This document shows positions 811 through 8,136 of a stretch of DNA of 37,938 nucleotides, piece by piece (position 1 is the stretch's first letter; each line of letters starts with the position of its first letter). The DNA is from an uncultured archaeon (GTDB lineage Archaea > Micrarchaeota > Micrarchaeia > CABMEP01): contig CABMEP010000044.1 of assembly GCA_902385155.1 (NCBI GenBank), positions 1 through 37,938 of the forward strand, in the 5' to 3' direction. Under the pieces are notes generated by a model, which saw only the letters and a list, made by a program, of their open reading frames with translations, made no database searches and was not told the DNA's origin. The translations under genes and the position numbers were made by a program.

Positions 811-1221
811 CTAGAAACCAAATCCAGGTGAGCGAGGTAGCTTAGGTTGGGGTAATGCAAATGGGTTTGTGTTTCTTACCTTCGCATGTTTCCTTTTCTT
901 TTCAATTTTTTGCACGTTTTCTTTATGTGTTTTCTTCGCATGATGATTTGGGCATAATGCTTGTAAATTCTTCACACTTGTACGGCCGCCCGTATCAACT
1001 CTTTTTATGTGGTCAAAATGAGGGGTAACACCATCGCGATTAAAATGTACTTTACATCCCGGCCAGGCACACTTGTCCTTTTGTCTTTGTAGAACCTCAT
1101 TTTTTTGCGAAGCGGTGGGATTAACTCTTTCATACTGCGTTTTAGATTCGCCCCAAACACTAAGTGGTTTTGTGTTACTCAGACTAAAAGGACTTCTTGC
1201 CATATTCTCACCTTTTAACAA
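811..1221 (-). CDS. HNH endonuclease family protein (start at 1221 or 1203)
   Basis: C-x4-C ... HFDHI...GGRTSVKNLQALCPNHHAKKT HNH signature. Confidence 0.85.
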   Translation of the reverse strand: MLKGENMARSPFSLSNTKPLSVWGESKTQYERVNPTASQKNEVLQRQKDKCAWPGCKVHFNRDGVTPHFDHIKRVDTGGRTSVKNLQALCPNHHAKKTHKENVQKIEKKRKHAKVRNTNPFALPQPKLPRSPGFGF

Positions 1222-1357
1222 ACAAACTGCCCACCAGGATCAAAATACCAAGATACACAACTGGCTGGATATTGACGAGTGCCCCAAGCACGATTACAAC
1301 TATCCCTAATTGAGAGTATACATTCAATTGACTTAGACTAACTTGGTTTTTTGCCAT
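1208..1357 (-). CDS. Small membrane protein, 49 aa (not in supplied ORF list)
   Basis: Manual translation: MAKNQVSLSQLNVYSQLGIVVIVLGALVNIQPVVYLGILILVGSLFVKR*. Two hydrophobic segments; slightly overlaps the HNH start; fills the gap between two array genes. Confidence 0.55.
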   Translation of the reverse strand: MAKNQVSLSQLNVYSQLGIVVIVLGALVNIQPVVYLGILILVGSLFVKR

Positions 1358-1422
1358 AGTTTCATCATCAACATGCCCTATTTTTAATATGTTTCAAACT
1401 CTCTTAGCACTTCCAATACTCT

Positions 1423-1752
1423 CTACTTCTCTTTGAACTCGCGTATGGCGAGTATTAGTAATTCTTTCATTTCACGCATATGGTGCTCCATCCTTGCTTT
1501 TCTAAACTCATAACTGCTGGTGACCAAATCAAACTTTTCATTCTCTCCTTCACTATTGATTTGATCCTCAAGCACTTTACCTCGCCGATATAACACCCAG
1601 TCTTGGTATTCCATTTGTGTAATCTTTTTAGCAACATCATACATCTTTTGGTACGCAGTCGCAGCGTCCTGTTTCTTCAACAGACCAAGGATATCTTTGA
1701 TATCCTTTGAATCGATTTTGATATCAGGTAGATTACCAGTCATTCCAACCAT
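1423..1752 (-). CDS. Hypothetical protein, 109 aa, charged helical
   Basis: ORF bounded by repeat copies on both sides. Confidence 0.65.
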   Translation of the reverse strand: MVGMTGNLPDIKIDSKDIKDILGLLKKQDAATAYQKMYDVAKKITQMEYQDWVLYRRGKVLEDQINSEGENEKFDLVTSSYEFRKARMEHHMREMKELLILAIREFKEK

Positions 1753-1770
1753 CTCTTAGCACTTCTAACA

Positions 1771-2112
1771 TTATTTGCGGTTTAAATATTGTTTAACCGG
1801 ATCTGCCACAGTATTTTCATTGATACCCTTGACACCGTTGGATATACAATATTCTGTTTTGAACCAATCAGATAACTCTTTTTTACCGTGACTCGAATTG
1901 CAACTCCCACAACAAATCGCAACATCCTTCATTTGCAGCCCGTCTTTCCAATAGAACGGCCCATTGGAATTGAAATGTTCAATTGTCGCAGAATCTCTTC
2001 GGTTGCTACGGTCGTACGGATAAATCATTTTTTTATGACAATATACACATCTCTGGTCCCTTTCACGGATTTTTAGCAATTCGTTATCCGGGATTCCAAA
2101 TTTGTTTGACAT
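1771..2112 (-). CDS. HNH-type endonuclease-like protein
   Basis: RDQRCVYCHKKM ... DSATIEHFNSNG ... AICCGSCNSSHGKKEL. Start set at MSNKFGIPDNELL (2112) because the longer ORF start lies inside the upstream gene. Confidence 0.75.
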   Translation of the reverse strand: MSNKFGIPDNELLKIRERDQRCVYCHKKMIYPYDRSNRRDSATIEHFNSNGPFYWKDGLQMKDVAICCGSCNSSHGKKELSDWFKTEYCISNGVKGINENTVADPVKQYLNRK

Positions 2113-2140
2113 AACTAATACACTCTCAGAACTTCCAACA

Positions 2141-2722
2141 CTATTTCGTCTTCGCCATCCCCAGCAGCTCTTTAAGGACAACCGGGAGCTTGGTGACCTC
2201 ATCGCTTCCGCTGAAATGGCCCTTGTCCTTCTCTATTATGATCCTGGCCCCTAACCTATTCTTGTAAGTCTCCGCGTTCTCAAGAGGGACATAAGGGTCA
2301 TTGTTGGAGAACACCGCCACGAAGTTGCGGGTGGTCTTCCTTATCCTGTCAAAGTCGATCGGAGTCTCGAACCATGGCTTCACTATCTTCCTCTCCTCTT
2401 TCGTCCGGGTGGCCATGGGAGTCAATGAGACCCATCCGGCCACGAATACCGCCCCGCCTATCTTCGCATCTACAGTCTGTAGGTATCTGAGCACAGCCTG
2501 GCATCCGATGCTATGCCCCACAAAAAACGTGTCCTTGTCCGCCTTTTTCACGACGCCAGCGAGGAAAGAGACCCATTTCCCTATGTCCGGCGCCTCGGAT
2601 TCAGGCATTGATGGGACTTCCACAATGTACCCCTTGGCCTCCAGCTCCTTCTTGAGCCACGGGAACCATCCCTCTTCGGGATATCCTTCCCATCCATGGA
2701 TTATGAAGACGCGTTTCGGCAT
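2141..2722 (-). CDS. RBBP9/YdeN-like serine hydrolase (alpha/beta fold)
   Basis: MPKRVFIIHGWEG..., nucleophile elbow GHSIGC, SNNDPYVP and GHF motifs. Confidence 0.85.
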   Translation of the reverse strand: MPKRVFIIHGWEGYPEEGWFPWLKKELEAKGYIVEVPSMPESEAPDIGKWVSFLAGVVKKADKDTFFVGHSIGCQAVLRYLQTVDAKIGGAVFVAGWVSLTPMATRTKEERKIVKPWFETPIDFDRIRKTTRNFVAVFSNNDPYVPLENAETYKNRLGARIIIEKDKGHFSGSDEVTKLPVVLKELLGMAKTK

Positions 2723-2752
2723 TTTACAAACTTTTTATTAGCACTTCCAACA

Positions 2753-3646
2753 CTATCTTGTCTTCAGGTATCTTCCGTACTCCTTGATGTATCTCTTGAA
2801 GAACCACTGGAGGAATATCAGGTCGTTGCCCTTCACCTGCGACCTCTCCAGCGAAGTGTAGTAGCTGCTCCTCTTCGAAGACGGTATGTTAAGCATAGGG
2901 AATCCATGCCTGTTCAGGACGAAATTCATCAGCAACCTGCTCATCCTGCCGTTACCATCTCCGAACGGATGTATAGTGACCAGTTTCAGATGGATGAGCG
3001 CCGCTAGTTCAATCGGATGCGTTCTCGCCTTGCTCTTGTCATACCATCTGAAAAGCTCCTTCAGCAGGACAGGCACTTCAGCCGGAGAAGGCGGCATGAA
3101 CTTACTGCCGGTTATCCCTACCTGATGTTCCCTTATCCTGCCTGCGATGTCTGGTTTCGTGCCACTGAATAACATATCGTGCCAAAAGAGAAGAATCTGG
3201 AGAGAGAGATCCTTCTTGTAATCCAGTATCTCGTAGAAAACCTTCCTGTGGGCTTCCGCCTCTTTTATATCGTCCAGCGGTTTCGATTTCGGAGTGGTTC
3301 CTCGCTCTAGCAGGTCCGCGGTCTCCCTGTAGGTGAGTTTCGAGCCCTCTATCCTGTTCGTATCATAGGTGAACTTGATCATGAAATGCTCTAGTTCTTT
3401 GTTCTTGGAGGAGACGGGCATCCCCTTCTGCTCCCTTTCGTATCCCCGCTTGATCCCATCGAGCTGCATGAACCACCTGTCCTTGTAGATGTGGTAGATG
3501 AACTCGCGCTGCAGCTCGGCGATGTTCTTCGGGACAGTCTTCCCAAGATATAGCTCCTTCTTTTGCACTTTCCCTTTCTCCCTTATGCTGTGCTCCAGGT
3601 AGTAGTACTCTTGGCTCCCGATAACGCGTTTCTTTATGGATACCAT
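2753..3646 (-). CDS. Fic family protein
   Basis: Fic motif HPFGDGNGRMSR; upstream inhibitory-type motif TNRIEG ([ST]xxxE[GN]). Confidence 0.9.
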   Translation of the reverse strand: MVSIKKRVIGSQEYYYLEHSIREKGKVQKKELYLGKTVPKNIAELQREFIYHIYKDRWFMQLDGIKRGYEREQKGMPVSSKNKELEHFMIKFTYDTNRIEGSKLTYRETADLLERGTTPKSKPLDDIKEAEAHRKVFYEILDYKKDLSLQILLFWHDMLFSGTKPDIAGRIREHQVGITGSKFMPPSPAEVPVLLKELFRWYDKSKARTHPIELAALIHLKLVTIHPFGDGNGRMSRLLMNFVLNRHGFPMLNIPSSKRSSYYTSLERSQVKGNDLIFLQWFFKRYIKEYGRYLKTR

Positions 3647-3655
3647 GGAAATCTT

Positions 3656-3705
3656 TACCCCTACATATTTATAAAATTAACCATTTTAGATGAAATGTAG
3701 AGGTA
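3656..3705. promoter_or_regulatory. Inverted repeat flanking the TATA region of the minus-strand fic gene
   Basis: Arms tacccctacat (3656-3666) and atgtagaggta (3695-3705), 10/11 complementary, enclosing tttataaaa just upstream of the start at 3646. Confidence 0.5.
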
Positions 3706-3758
3706 AGACAAATGGATCAAGTCGGCTCTCTCTTAGCACTTCCAACACTTTCTCTGAT

Positions 3759-4160
3759 TCAGCCCTTTGATGGCCTGCTCTTCGCTATCCTCACGCTCGC
3801 TTTCACGAGCCTCTTCACCAATGATACCGGGATCCTCTCGTCCAGCGGAATCTGCACGGATGCCTTCGTGGTGATATACTTCGCGAGCTCATCCTTGTGG
3901 TCCTCTATCGTCGGGGGCGGGAACAGGAGCACTATGTACGATTTCCGGAGACCGAACCAGGCGAACATCCCGTTGTAGTAATAACCTGGATAGGAATACC
4001 CCGGTGTTTGAAAATAAGCCATGGTCTCTATCGCTCCGGGCGCCGCTTCCTTTATTGCCGCCCTGATCGTCTTCAGATTGATCTGGACATCCTTCGGGCA
4101 CTTCGCTATGTAGGCGTCCACGTCTTTGGATCCGGACTCCTTGGATATGCGTTTGGCCAT
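3759..4160 (-). CDS. DUF1801 / YdhG-like protein
   Basis: VDAYIAKCPKDVQINLKTIRAAIKEAAPGAIETMAYFQTPGYSY...GMFAWFGLRKSYIVLLFPPP. Confidence 0.7.
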   Translation of the reverse strand: MAKRISKESGSKDVDAYIAKCPKDVQINLKTIRAAIKEAAPGAIETMAYFQTPGYSYPGYYYNGMFAWFGLRKSYIVLLFPPPTIEDHKDELAKYITTKASVQIPLDERIPVSLVKRLVKASVRIAKSRPSKG

Positions 4161-4206
4161 GTTTTCCCTTCTTATGCTTCAATCACAACAGCATCCCTAA
4201 CTCGTT

Positions 4207-4572
4207 CTATCTCTTCTCCTCGTTCATCCTCGCTTTCTCTTTCAGCATCCTCTTCATGATCGTGACGGGCGCCTTCTGGTCAAACCTGATCTGTATTGTC
4301 TTGTTTCCTGTCTTGTATCCTTTTTCCGCGAGCGCCTTGCGGTCCTTGCTCTTGAGGTGGAACGCCAGGCCGAAGTCGACGTGATCCTTCAATGCGACGA
4401 AACCAGCGAGAAGGCCGTGGTACTTGTAGAATGGGATGCCCCAGCTTATGCTCTCCTCCGCGCCCGGGACTGCTGATCTTATCATCTTCCTGACCTCCTT
4501 AAGTTTCGGGCGCGCCTCCTTCGGCATGCTGGCGATGTACTCATTGACGTTCTTCGCTTTGTAGTTCTGCAT
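4207..4572 (-). CDS. DUF1801-like protein
   Basis: VNEYIASMPKEARPKLKEVRKMIRSAVPGAEESISWGIPFYKYHGLLAGFVALKDHVDFG. Confidence 0.75.
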   Translation of the reverse strand: MQNYKAKNVNEYIASMPKEARPKLKEVRKMIRSAVPGAEESISWGIPFYKYHGLLAGFVALKDHVDFGLAFHLKSKDRKALAEKGYKTGNKTIQIRFDQKAPVTIMKRMLKEKARMNEEKR

Positions 4573-4609
4573 ATCTCCCTCCTTTAGCTGGAGAGATGGG
4601 AATAAAAAG

Positions 4610-4690
4610 TAAAAGGAGAGGGCTTACGCCCTCTTCCCGAAGCCGGAACCCAGGTTCCGGCGGCCTCCCGACCGTCCTCGCGGATCCGAA
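4610..4690. other. GC-rich tandem hairpin element in a divergent intergenic region (possible structured RNA or terminator)
   Basis: agagggc-ttac-gccctct and gccggaac-ccag-gttccggc are perfect inverted repeats in tandem; read on the minus strand the first hairpin is followed by ccttttacttttta. Confidence 0.45.
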
Positions 4691-4723
4691 GCAAAAGCAC
4701 AAAATAGATTCTTTTTTGACTAG

Positions 4724-4808
4724 TATCTTACATTTATTATGCTTTTTGTGTTATAAACTATATCGTCGTTATTTTTAGGCATACATTAAGAACAGAAAAT
4801 GTAAGATA
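4724..4808. promoter_or_regulatory. 12-bp perfect inverted repeat upstream of the plus-strand fic gene
   Basis: tatcttacattt (4724-4735) / aaatgtaagata (4797-4808); the right arm lies next to TATA-like ttaataaa (4811-4818) about 27 nt before ATG 4841. Confidence 0.5.
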
Positions 4809-4840
4809 AGTTAATAAAGGTCATCGCACAATATATTATT

Positions 4841-5812
4841 ATGGGGATAAGGAAAAAGACAGTGAACGGTCAGGAATACTACTATCTGGAGGAAACAATA
4901 AGGCTAGAGACGCCCAAAGTCTATTCGCTGTTCCTTGGGAAAAGGATACCTCCGAAGCGCACGCTTGAGGAGAAGAGAAAAGAGCTCCTGGAAAAGATCT
5001 ACGCGAATCTGCTGGACAATGCCGAGCGCAGGTACCTGACAAAAGAGCAACTGATAGAGGTGGAGAAGCAGAGAAGGAGGTATCTCCAGAGAGTGAAGGG
5101 ACTAGGCAAGGCGAAACAGGAGGAGAAGGAAGAGATAGACACCGTGAATTTCGTCTACACCACCCTGACCACCGAGGGTGTTCCCGTAACAAGGGAAGAC
5201 GCCGACCTGGCCTACCGGTTCGCCGGAAAGAACGTGAGGGGGATCAGAGACGAGAACCTGAACGTTGCGCTTGACATGATAAACGGGCTGAGATACCTGA
5301 AGGAAAGCAAAAAGGGGATTTCAAGAGGGTTCATACTAGACCTTCATAAAATCATTATGGAGGCGTACAAAGACAAGAATCCTGGGAAGTTCAGAACTAA
5401 ACAAGCCTACATATACCTCAAGAGCCACGAGAGGGCCGAAGAGATAAGGTTCAGGCCCCCTGCTCCAAGCAAGATAGAAGGCAAGATCGCCGAGCTCGTC
5501 GAATGGTACAATCTGAATATGGGGAAGCTCAACGCGGTGGAGTTGGCCGCGCTGCTGCACCTCCGCTTGTACATGATCCATCCGTTCGATGACGGGAACA
5601 AGAGGATGTCCCGCCTGCTCTTCAACAAGGCGTTCTTCGATTCCGGCTACCCGATGCTGAACATATCGAAGGAGACCCAGAGCTATTTCGATGCGCTGAT
5701 CAGATCCGCCGAGAAAGAGGATGAGAAACCGTTCGTGCTGTTCGTCGCGGAGCAGCTCATAGCGTACATGCGCGCTAGATTCAACAAAGGAGCGCGCACA
5801 GCCGGTTCTTGA
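4841..5812 (+). CDS. Fic/Doc family protein
   Basis: HPFDDGNKRMSR motif; N-terminal TLTTEG inhibitory-type motif. N-terminus resembles the 2753..3646 product (QEYYYLE...LFLGKRIP vs QEYYYLE...LYLGKTVP). Confidence 0.9.
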   Translation: MGIRKKTVNGQEYYYLEETIRLETPKVYSLFLGKRIPPKRTLEEKRKELLEKIYANLLDNAERRYLTKEQLIEVEKQRRRYLQRVKGLGKAKQEEKEEIDTVNFVYTTLTTEGVPVTREDADLAYRFAGKNVRGIRDENLNVALDMINGLRYLKESKKGISRGFILDLHKIIMEAYKDKNPGKFRTKQAYIYLKSHERAEEIRFRPPAPSKIEGKIAELVEWYNLNMGKLNAVELAALLHLRLYMIHPFDDGNKRMSRLLFNKAFFDSGYPMLNISKETQSYFDALIRSAEKEDEKPFVLFVAEQLIAYMRARFNKGARTAGS

Positions 5813-5847
5813 ACACCCCCGCTCGCAACGCTTCCAACACTTCCTAT

Positions 5848-5883
5848 TGTAGTTAACAAAAATCAATAGTTTTGTTAACTACA
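5848..5883. repeat. 14-bp perfect inverted repeat, 8-nt spacer
   Basis: tgtagttaacaaaa-atcaatag-ttttgttaactaca. Confidence 0.7.
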
Positions 5884-5927
5884 CAGAAAGCGGCGCTTCA
5901 TCCGAACCAGCTCTCTCAGCATTAATG

Positions 5928-6522
5928 CTATCTCGTCTTCGCCAGCCCGTACTCCGTCTTCCTCTCCTTGACGTACTTCTCGAACAGCCCCTTCGCCGTC
6001 TTCGTGGAGAATGGCCTGTCTTTCAGCTTGCTGTCGGTCTCCAGGTAATTGATCATCTCGGCCGGCCCCTTGTTCAGGATCTTCATCAAGGCGGGGAATC
6101 CTTCCTTCGTGGCCATCCACGCGAAGTCGAGGTCATTGAATGTCCCAAGGACCCTATCCCCTGTATAGATATTGTTCTCTCCGAACGCCCAGTTGTCGTG
6201 GACCGAGACGTACTTGACGATCTGTATGACCTTCTCTCTCGGGTAGCCGACCGTCTCCAATGTCTGCCCCGCGATCCTCGCGCCGGCTTCCATGTGCGCC
6301 TTCCTGAGATCGAGATTGAACGGATTCCCCTTCGGCACCGCCGAATAGCCGACATCATGAAGTATGACCAAAGGGAGCAGCAGGGAGTCGTCGATCTTCT
6401 CCTTCCTGCAGACCAGCATGGCGTCCTTCATCATCCACTCTATATGGGCGATGTCCATCGGGCGGCCCTTCTCGTAGTACGGCTTTGCAAGGTCCCATAT
6501 CTTCCTGTAGATTGTGTTCATG
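5928..6522 (-). CDS. HD-domain protein
   Basis: MNTIYRKIWDLAKPYYEKGRPMDIAHIEWM...PLVILHDVGY...VSVHDNWAFGE. Start placed at 6522. Confidence 0.75.
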
Positions 6523-6545
6523 ATCAACTCTCTTAGCATTTTCAA

Positions 6546-6965
6546 CTATTTTTTCTTCAGCTTTGGAAAATGCTTGTTCTTTGCTCCGCAATTCAAGCAA
6601 ACATCCCTATGGACGCACAGCAGATGCCCGCATTCGGGGCATTTCCACTTGATTCCTTGTTTCTTGACAAATGACGCCATTCCGATCCTGCTGATAGCCC
6701 GCAGGTTCTGGATCGGGCTCTCCCCGTACTTCGTAGTGTATCTTTTATCTAAATCCTTGATCCTCTTGCAAGGGAATCTGCTGCATGAAATGCACAATCT
6801 CCTGCTGTTTCCCTTTTTTTCTGGACACATCGTTATGCTGCACACCTTGCAATGATTAAGCTTGGACCCCGTTCTATTGCATCCCGCGCATGTGTTCTTC
6901 TCACGCTGAAAACCCAAGCAGAGGTCACAGATCACCCCGCAGGGCGCAATGCTTTTCACATCCAT
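6546..6965 (-). CDS. DUF3795-like Cys-rich protein with C-terminal zinc ribbon
   Basis: APCGVICDLCLGFQREKNTCAGC...CSRFPCKRIKDLDKRY; WKCPECGHLLCVHRDVCLNCG. Confidence 0.75.
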   Translation of the reverse strand: MDVKSIAPCGVICDLCLGFQREKNTCAGCNRTGSKLNHCKVCSITMCPEKKGNSRRLCISCSRFPCKRIKDLDKRYTTKYGESPIQNLRAISRIGMASFVKKQGIKWKCPECGHLLCVHRDVCLNCGAKNKHFPKLKKK

Positions 6966-6999
6966 GGATTACACTTCCAACTCTCTTAGCATTCCAATA

Positions 7000-7191
7000 C
7001 TATTTCAGCAGCCTGAACCTCGACGCCCCGATGGATACCACGCCCAGTATGCCCAGCACGATCGGGAATGCGCTATCGCTCATGAAATTCCCCAGCATCA
7101 TTGCCGCCGCGAATATGACGAGCGCTATCCCGATGTGGAACATGGTCCTGTTGCCTTTCGGTTCTCTCTTCGATGTTTTCTCCATATGCAT
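7000..7191 (-). CDS. Small two-TM membrane protein, 63 aa
   Basis: MFHIGIALVIFAAAMMLGNFMSDSAFPIVLGILGVVSIGASRFRLLK; bounded by repeat-like junctions. Confidence 0.6.
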   Translation of the reverse strand: MHMEKTSKREPKGNRTMFHIGIALVIFAAAMMLGNFMSDSAFPIVLGILGVVSIGASRFRLLK

Positions 7192-7212
7192 CCCTCTTGC
7201 CTCCAGCGCGGT

Positions 7213-7872
7213 TCAGTCCTTCCCTTCCCACTCGTTGTAGAACCGCTCGAGGTACCTCTCCATGAACGCATGCCTCCCGTGGGCCATCTCCTTCGCAGTC
7301 TTGGTGTTCATCCTGTCCTTCACCAGGAGCAGTTTCTCGTAGAAATGGTTGATCGTGGTCCCCTTGTCCCTCTTGTAGGCCGCGAACGTCTGGTTCGGCT
7401 GCGGCTTCACGCCGGGATCGTGCATGATCCTGCCCTTCATCCCGCCGTAGACGAACGCCCGGGCTATCCCAATGGCGCCTATCGCGTCCAGCCTGTCCGC
7501 GTCCTGGACCACCATGCCCTCCTTCGTCCTGATGCGGTTCTTCACTCCGGCCCCCTTGAACGAGGTGTTCGCGATGATGTCGCAGACGTGGGAGACTGTC
7601 TCCCCGTCCAGGTCCAGCAACTCCAGCCACTCCCTCGCCACGCGCGGCCCGACAGCCATGTCGTTGCCGTGCAGCTTCCAGTCCGCTATGTCATGGAGCA
7701 GGGCTCCGAGCTGGACGACGAACAGGTCCGCTTTCTCCTTCTTGCCTATGTGGACCGCCGCCCTCCATACGCGGTAGACATGCCACCAGTCATGGCCGGA
7801 GCGGTCGTCTTCCATCTTCTTCCTGACATGCTCCATCGTCTTCTTGATGATGAGTCTCTTGTTCATTGGCAT
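7213..7872 (-). CDS. HD superfamily phosphohydrolase (YedJ-like)
   Basis: GHDWWHVYRVWRAAVHIGKKEKADLFVVQLGALLHDIADWKLHG...QDADRLDAIGAIGIARAFVYGG. Confidence 0.9.
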   Translation of the reverse strand: MPMNKRLIIKKTMEHVRKKMEDDRSGHDWWHVYRVWRAAVHIGKKEKADLFVVQLGALLHDIADWKLHGNDMAVGPRVAREWLELLDLDGETVSHVCDIIANTSFKGAGVKNRIRTKEGMVVQDADRLDAIGAIGIARAFVYGGMKGRIMHDPGVKPQPNQTFAAYKRDKGTTINHFYEKLLLVKDRMNTKTAKEMAHGRHAFMERYLERFYNEWEGKD

Positions 7873-8136
7873 CAGCTCTTCTAGCTATCGAGATAGGAAT
7901 AAAAGAGCGGCTTTTTCTATCTGCCGGAATGCCATTCCGAAACGCTTGTCCGATCTGCCCAGCTCTTCTCCTCGAAACGCCTTCCCTATCGCCAGACGCA
8001 ATGCTCTGCTGCGCTCTCTCGAGCGTTTGGGGTCCGAGACGAGGACTGGCCCTCGATCAGGAAAAACTCGGCAGCCCGTCGCCACCTGCGCCGAGTAAAT
8101 GCAAATATTTAAATATAAGAAATACGTAATCCGACA

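Follow-up and report, generated by a model that had tools for sequence, protein, structure and literature searches.

What places the same short repeat behind one unrelated gene after another along an archaeal chromosome? The question is raised by a stretch of 37,938 bp (hereafter the window; positions 1 to 37,938 of contig CABMEP010000044.1, assembly GCA_902385155.1) from an uncultured member of the class Micrarchaeia, in which most of the genes between 811 and 7872 are followed by a copy of such a repeat. A first-pass annotation, made from the sequence alone, had described these genes as an integron-like cassette array with no visible integrase. This repeat belongs, in degenerate form, to a family of 37-bp, four-box, dyad-symmetric sites that is spread across the class. 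The explanation tentatively preferred here is a single cluster of sites on the chromosome to which a dimeric DNA-binding protein would bind, in a hotspot of gene turnover that can be mistaken for a cassette array.

A stop-linked repeat in the window

The 20-mer TGTTGGAAGTGCTAAGAGAG, with up to three mismatches allowed, has six matches in the window, which lie between 1399 and 6547 and are without exception on the minus strand; 100 dinucleotide shuffles gave none. The 5928 gene is followed by a degenerate copy with small indels at 5911-5930, and the 7000 gene by another at 6974-7002. Eight minus-strand stop codons have a copy of the repeat after them, which bears out the stop-linked repeat described earlier, including the junctions quoted for it. 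The gap between stop and repeat was also rightly given as short, being 0-4 nt in most cases, although it is 11 nt and not 14 nt for the 3759 gene, and the repeat after the 6546 gene overlaps the stop codon of that gene. There is no convincing copy after the 4207 gene or after the 7213 gene. Nearly all genes of the array had been placed on the minus strand; the Fic gene at 4841-5812 is on the plus strand. The rest of the 965-kb genome contains one match within three mismatches, which lies inside the pheS coding sequence and is a chance occurrence; apart from it, all copies of the repeat are at a single locus. A genome-wide gene-end signal was rejected as a candidate, since the genome has this one locus and the one chance match.

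Structure and distribution of the site

The exact window repeat gave only scattered matches in 295 class genomes, near the control rate and with no clustering, 10 single matches in other genome contigs, which is about the chance level, and none in viral contigs; an Rfam search returned nothing credible. The family was reached by another path. When class genomes were searched de novo for k-mers linked to stop codons at loci near DUF1801 genes, one of 34 loci was positive, the strong case being TTTTAGAAATACTAAAAGGATATTGGAAAT in genome G171. The window and G171 sets were used to build sequence model R1, followed by the plain pattern TTAGAAWTTCTAA. Exact palindromes of this form are present in 64 of the 285 class genomes, and genomes with two or more of them mostly have at least two copies within a few kb. 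A model of 64 sites (R2) matches 170 of the 285 genomes at E ≤ 0.05. Among the matches listed and the genomes inspected, carriers mostly have one intergenic cluster of sites per genome; the class genomes, which are small and probably DPANN, are mostly incomplete, and completeness is 83% for the genome of the window. Sites occur at two places in G068, G126 and G125, and probably in G017.

The bounded consensus of the gene-oriented sites is TnTAAnAnnnTnTTAGAAWTTCTAAnAnnnTnTTAGA, with TTCTAAAATAGTATTAGAAATTCTAAATAATTATTAGAT as an example of a full site. Its 13-bp near-palindromic core TTAGAAWTTCTAA (in the window form TTGGAAGTGCTAA) has further half-boxes 7 bp away on either side, so that the units recur at 20 bp. 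This arrangement was examined on 51 distinct palindromes gathered regardless of their flanks: 26 of the 102 sides have an outer box at a gap of precisely 7, compared with 0-2 for other gaps, and A and T are nearly fixed inside the 7-nt spacer. The longest array seen, at 243-409 of locus L206 (genome G280, contig C7), consists of eight tandem 20-bp units directly upstream of a gene start.

A position weight matrix (PWM) was trained on exact palindromes, a form absent from the window. In 579 kb of selected loci it finds 157 sites, as against 3 in shuffles, while 845 kb of background DNA has 13 matches scoring at least 18, five of them in one locus that had been fetched for its cluster. Six window sites score 18.5-25.4 under this PWM, trained without them; local base composition lowers these scores, with two still above 18, a value that 100 shuffles never reach. 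Part of the training data for the PWM and the models came from the very loci described; independent of it are the flank test, the shuffles and the scores of the window sites, and the matches of model R2 in the genome of the window are not independent because the six window sites were in its training set.

Sites lie outside the open reading frame (ORF) calls in 119 of 150 cases, compared with 14% at random, the gene calls being simple ORF calls. Of these 150 sites, 31 are inside ORF calls, 58 are in co-directional, 29 in convergent and 23 in divergent intergenic positions, and 44 of the 58 co-directional ones are closer to the stop. Under a stricter pattern the positions were 17 divergent, 16 convergent and 16 co-directional.

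In the window there is one site per gene end, in a single orientation. The four-box sites on the minus strand are located at 1392-1428 after the 1423 gene (TATTGGAAGTGCTAAGAGAGTTTG; one mismatch to the repeat, PWM score 20.6, E=1e-6 with model R1), at 1744-1780 after the 1771 gene (TGTTAGAAGTGCTAAGAGATGGTTGG; 19.0), at 2114-2150 after the 2141 gene (TGTTGGAAGTTCTGAGAGTGTATTAG; 25.4) and at 2726-2762 after the 2753 gene (TGTTGGAAGTGCTAATAAAAAGTTTG; 25.2), the last three matched by both the repeat pattern and model R1, and at 6521-6557, where site and stop codon of the 6546 gene overlap (TTGAAAATGCTAAGAGAG; repeat pattern match, 18.5). Another four-box site at 663-699, with its core TTAGAATTTCCAG at 675-687, scores 20.4 under the PWM from other genomes and sits between the stop of a serine-recombinase gene (667) and the 811 gene, which converge. 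The copy at 3721-3757 after the 3759 gene is an exact match to the repeat (R1 E=4e-6) and has an intact core and a degenerate right-hand outer box, its PWM score not exceeding 8. The minus-strand copies at 5911-5930, which has a deletion and was read from the aligned sequence (TAGCATTAATGCTGAGAGAG), and at 6974-7002, with a 1-nt deletion (TATTGGAATGCTAAGAGAGTTGGAAG; R1 E=1.6e-5), are degenerate, and a weak one at 5822-5845 (AGGAAGTGTTGGAAGCGTTGCGAG; minus strand, 79% to the repeat family) lies downstream of the plus-strand Fic gene. One GTTGGAA-like box per junction had been recognized in the first-pass annotation; the box is indeed there, as one of the four boxes of the site.

Tests for a recombination site

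The CTAA and TTAG boxes, 7 nt apart, have what we take to be a likeness to the core sites of attI and attC. An attC-like hairpin was rejected because its pairing does not covary: 73.4% of the cells are paired compared with 73.1% in shuffles, and the conserved feature of the sites is their sequence and not a fold. Conservative recombination usually requires matching spacers. The spacers of these sites are not shared within a genome, with identities of 0.478 within genomes, 0.468 within genera and 0.435 between genera, in contrast to archaeal attC sites, which are more alike within genomes (PMC9668308). An attC-like recombination site, whose geometry had been recognized in the array, is not supported by these comparisons, the sites being near-symmetric and also found between divergent genes and in tandem elsewhere.

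No tyrosine recombinase (PF00589) was found by profile search in the genome of the window, which is 83% complete, in agreement with the earlier statement that no integron integrase is visible. Such a protein is also missing in 19 of 44 carriers, the well-assembled G004 (97%), G032 (94%) and G125 (on one contig) among them, and 10 of 15 genomes with no site match have one, so a resident tyrosine recombinase is not needed. No class genome reaches the TIGR02249 cut-off for IntI, and the top matches to this profile are Xer-like and do not adjoin sites. Near the clusters no recombinase was found except the serine recombinase of the window itself.

A proposed cluster of protein-binding sites

A binding site is favored because there is no covariation, the spacers are not shared, tyrosine recombinases are not associated with carriage, and the sites are similar to those of archaeal SegB, TCTAGA-S-TCTAGA (PMC12284271). 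Like these, the sites of the class have a 13-bp palindrome with an odd center and TAGA/TCTA half-sites, several of them clustered in one region. The likeness is one of size and symmetry only, as the core of the class, TTAGAA-W-TTCTAA, does not have the SegAB motif, and the half-boxes flanking it at 7 bp are a further difference. The repeat would be a sequence-specific site in double-stranded DNA, made of the near-palindrome and the outer half-boxes, and the window array is the site cluster of its genome. A dimeric DNA-binding protein encoded elsewhere may bind the sites cooperatively, with chromosome segregation or organization as a role suggested by the SegB analogy. The accessory genes between the sites are replaced quickly, with the points of exchange at sites in several cases, and this turnover would lend the locus the appearance of a cassette array.

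Several observations weigh against such a cluster of binding sites. No ParA/SegB-type family recurs among 122 neighboring proteins or across genera, and no binder was found. The sites of SegB in Sulfolobus are mostly intragenic and scattered (PMC12284271), whereas those of the class are intergenic and clustered. In G125, assembled as a single contig, the cluster at 546 kb is near a weak minimum of the sampled cumulative GC skew, which does not place it firmly with respect to origin or terminus. Finally, the window sites stand each at a gene end in one orientation, and a binding cluster needs neither. The segAB genes (ParA-like and RHH proteins) were not seen next to clusters, the genomes not having been searched for them elsewhere, and no Orc1/Cdc6 or other origin family next to the clusters is shared across genera. 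The GC skew of G017 was uninformative on the position of the cluster.

A small AbrB/SpoVT-like protein is encoded in the clusters of three genomes of genus g17 (L222:10098-10292, L208:11409-11597, L209:1936-2121), its gene being followed by a site in two of the three, and is a candidate binding protein for that genus. GGDEF (diguanylate cyclase) genes are located near sites in two families of the class (L143:9418-10170, L202:1518-2099).

Gene turnover at the sites and other explanations

In other genomes the genes beside sites of this family are different ones, which the first-pass annotation had proposed as a check, and in the cases examined genes turn over at the sites. In genus g22 there is a GNAT gene with sites on both sides, and in comparisons of G132 with G023 and of the two G023 copies homology begins and ends at sites. 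G132 and G075 are 94% identical over 790 nt, separate at a site and have different genes beyond it, and in genus g28 G122 and G183 likewise separate directly behind a site that both have, with different genes from there on. The comparison of strains for breakpoints in the repeat, suggested earlier, thus gave clear cases in two genera but no general excess: of 409 alignment-block ends, 6.8% are near sites compared with 9.2% for random intergenic positions, and an alignment may be extended by a conserved site itself. Toxin-antitoxin and GNAT genes lie between sites in class genomes, and the only families common to loci of at least three genera are a helicase, GNAT and a zinc/iron-cluster protein.

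These cases would fit an integron-like cassette array with a new type of site, in which a gene and its 3' four-box site are mobile and a putative recombinase acts in trans. The single orientation and the one site per gene end in the window, the mixed base composition and accessory nature of its genes, the site-bounded GNAT gene in different contexts and the pairs of genomes that diverge at a site all point in this direction. We nevertheless regard this explanation as possible but doubtful, as no recombinase is linked to the clusters and tyrosine recombinases are not associated with carriage, the spacers vary freely within a genome, the block ends do not exceed random intergenic positions, and sites are also found between divergent genes and in tandem. 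The wider proposal of a whole-class platform for gene exchange, previously undescribed as judged by a search of the open-access literature, seems rather unlikely; on it a recombinase other than IntI and Xer would swap accessory genes at one locus via the four-box site of 37 bp. Of the non-classical cassette system envisaged at first, it holds that this is not a canonical integron and that genes turn over at sites in related species, while an attC-like recombination site is unsupported.

A transcription terminator or 3'-end processing element common to the genes of the locus would account for sites close after stops, including most of the co-directional ones, and for the 29 between convergent genes. 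It is improbable, given that most carriers among the matches listed have the sites at one locus and not genome-wide, that 23 of the 150 sites are between divergent genes, that eight units occur in tandem and that the hairpin pairing shows no covariation. A perfect 14-bp inverted repeat, TGTAGTTAACAAAA, with an 8-nt loop at 5848-5883, between the convergent Fic and HD genes, is terminator-like.

If accessory genes had gathered at an Xer site of the chromosome and were mobilized by the Xer recombinase of the host, the locus would resemble the pdif (dif) modules of Acinetobacter, which are outlined in two reports (PMC6449649, PMC13141974) as accessory genes between short inverted-box sites, moved with no linked recombinase gene. 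The single chromosomal locus, the inverted boxes and the toxin-antitoxin and GNAT genes between sites are in line with this, but pdif sites, according to the same outlines, are Xer sites for host tyrosine recombinases, and with many well-assembled carriers lacking any PF00589 protein and spacers not conserved within genomes this origin is very unlikely. Canonical cassettes with ordinary attC sites and no integrase (CALIN) share with the locus a series of accessory genes and, behind each gene, a short repeat that contains inverted boxes, and have been published for archaea, Nanoarchaeota included (PMC9668308), and very short attC terminal structures exist (PMC2727003), yet symmetric sites of 37 bp without a covarying fold, the failure of any class genome to reach the IntI cut-off and the missing within-genome similarity make them hardly credible here.

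Genes of the window locus

The genes between the window copies are accessory and unrelated, as had been noted in the first-pass annotation. On the minus strand they code for an HNH endonuclease (811-1221, PF01844), an AT-rich hypothetical protein with no Pfam match (1423-1752), an HNH-like, weakly PtuB-like protein (1771-2112), a serine hydrolase (2141-2722, PF06821), a Fic protein (2753-3646, PF02661), two DUF1801 proteins (3759-4160 and 4207-4572, both PF08818), an HD-domain protein (5928-6545, PF01966), a DUF3795 protein (6546-6965, PF12675), a small membrane protein (7000-7191, an ORF with no Pfam match) and an HD phosphohydrolase (7213-7872, PF01966), and on the opposite strand for a second Fic protein (4841-5812, PF02661). 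The HNH, Fic, DUF1801 and HD families are thus present in pairs. The G+C content at third codon positions (GC3) is 32-44% for the genes at 811-2112, 63-83% for those at 2141-7191 and 89% for that at 7213-7872, climbing inward from the contig end. Two 29-bp stretches that are 79% alike, at 4579-4607 and 7876-7904, just upstream of the 4207 and 7213 genes, are promoter-like and mark the first genes of two runs.

The plus-strand gene at 65-667 codes for a serine-recombinase homologue (PF00239) that shares 38% identity with an intact paralogue encoded on contig C11. In the alignment the paralogue motifs YARVST and DRFSR read YHHAEK and KNFRK, the catalytic serine and arginines being gone, and the protein is therefore unlikely to be an active enzyme. 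Its ORF stays open, and it may be a remnant that still binds DNA and has acquired a new role.

Significance

Integrase-free cassette-like arrays of archaea need not be integrons, and this calls for caution in their annotation. A multi-copy site found mostly at one locus per chromosome in a class of small archaeal genomes would point either to an undescribed locus of chromosome segregation or organization or to a new gene-exchange system. In these organisms, most of which are uncultured, either reading can be put to a direct test with the 37-bp consensus.

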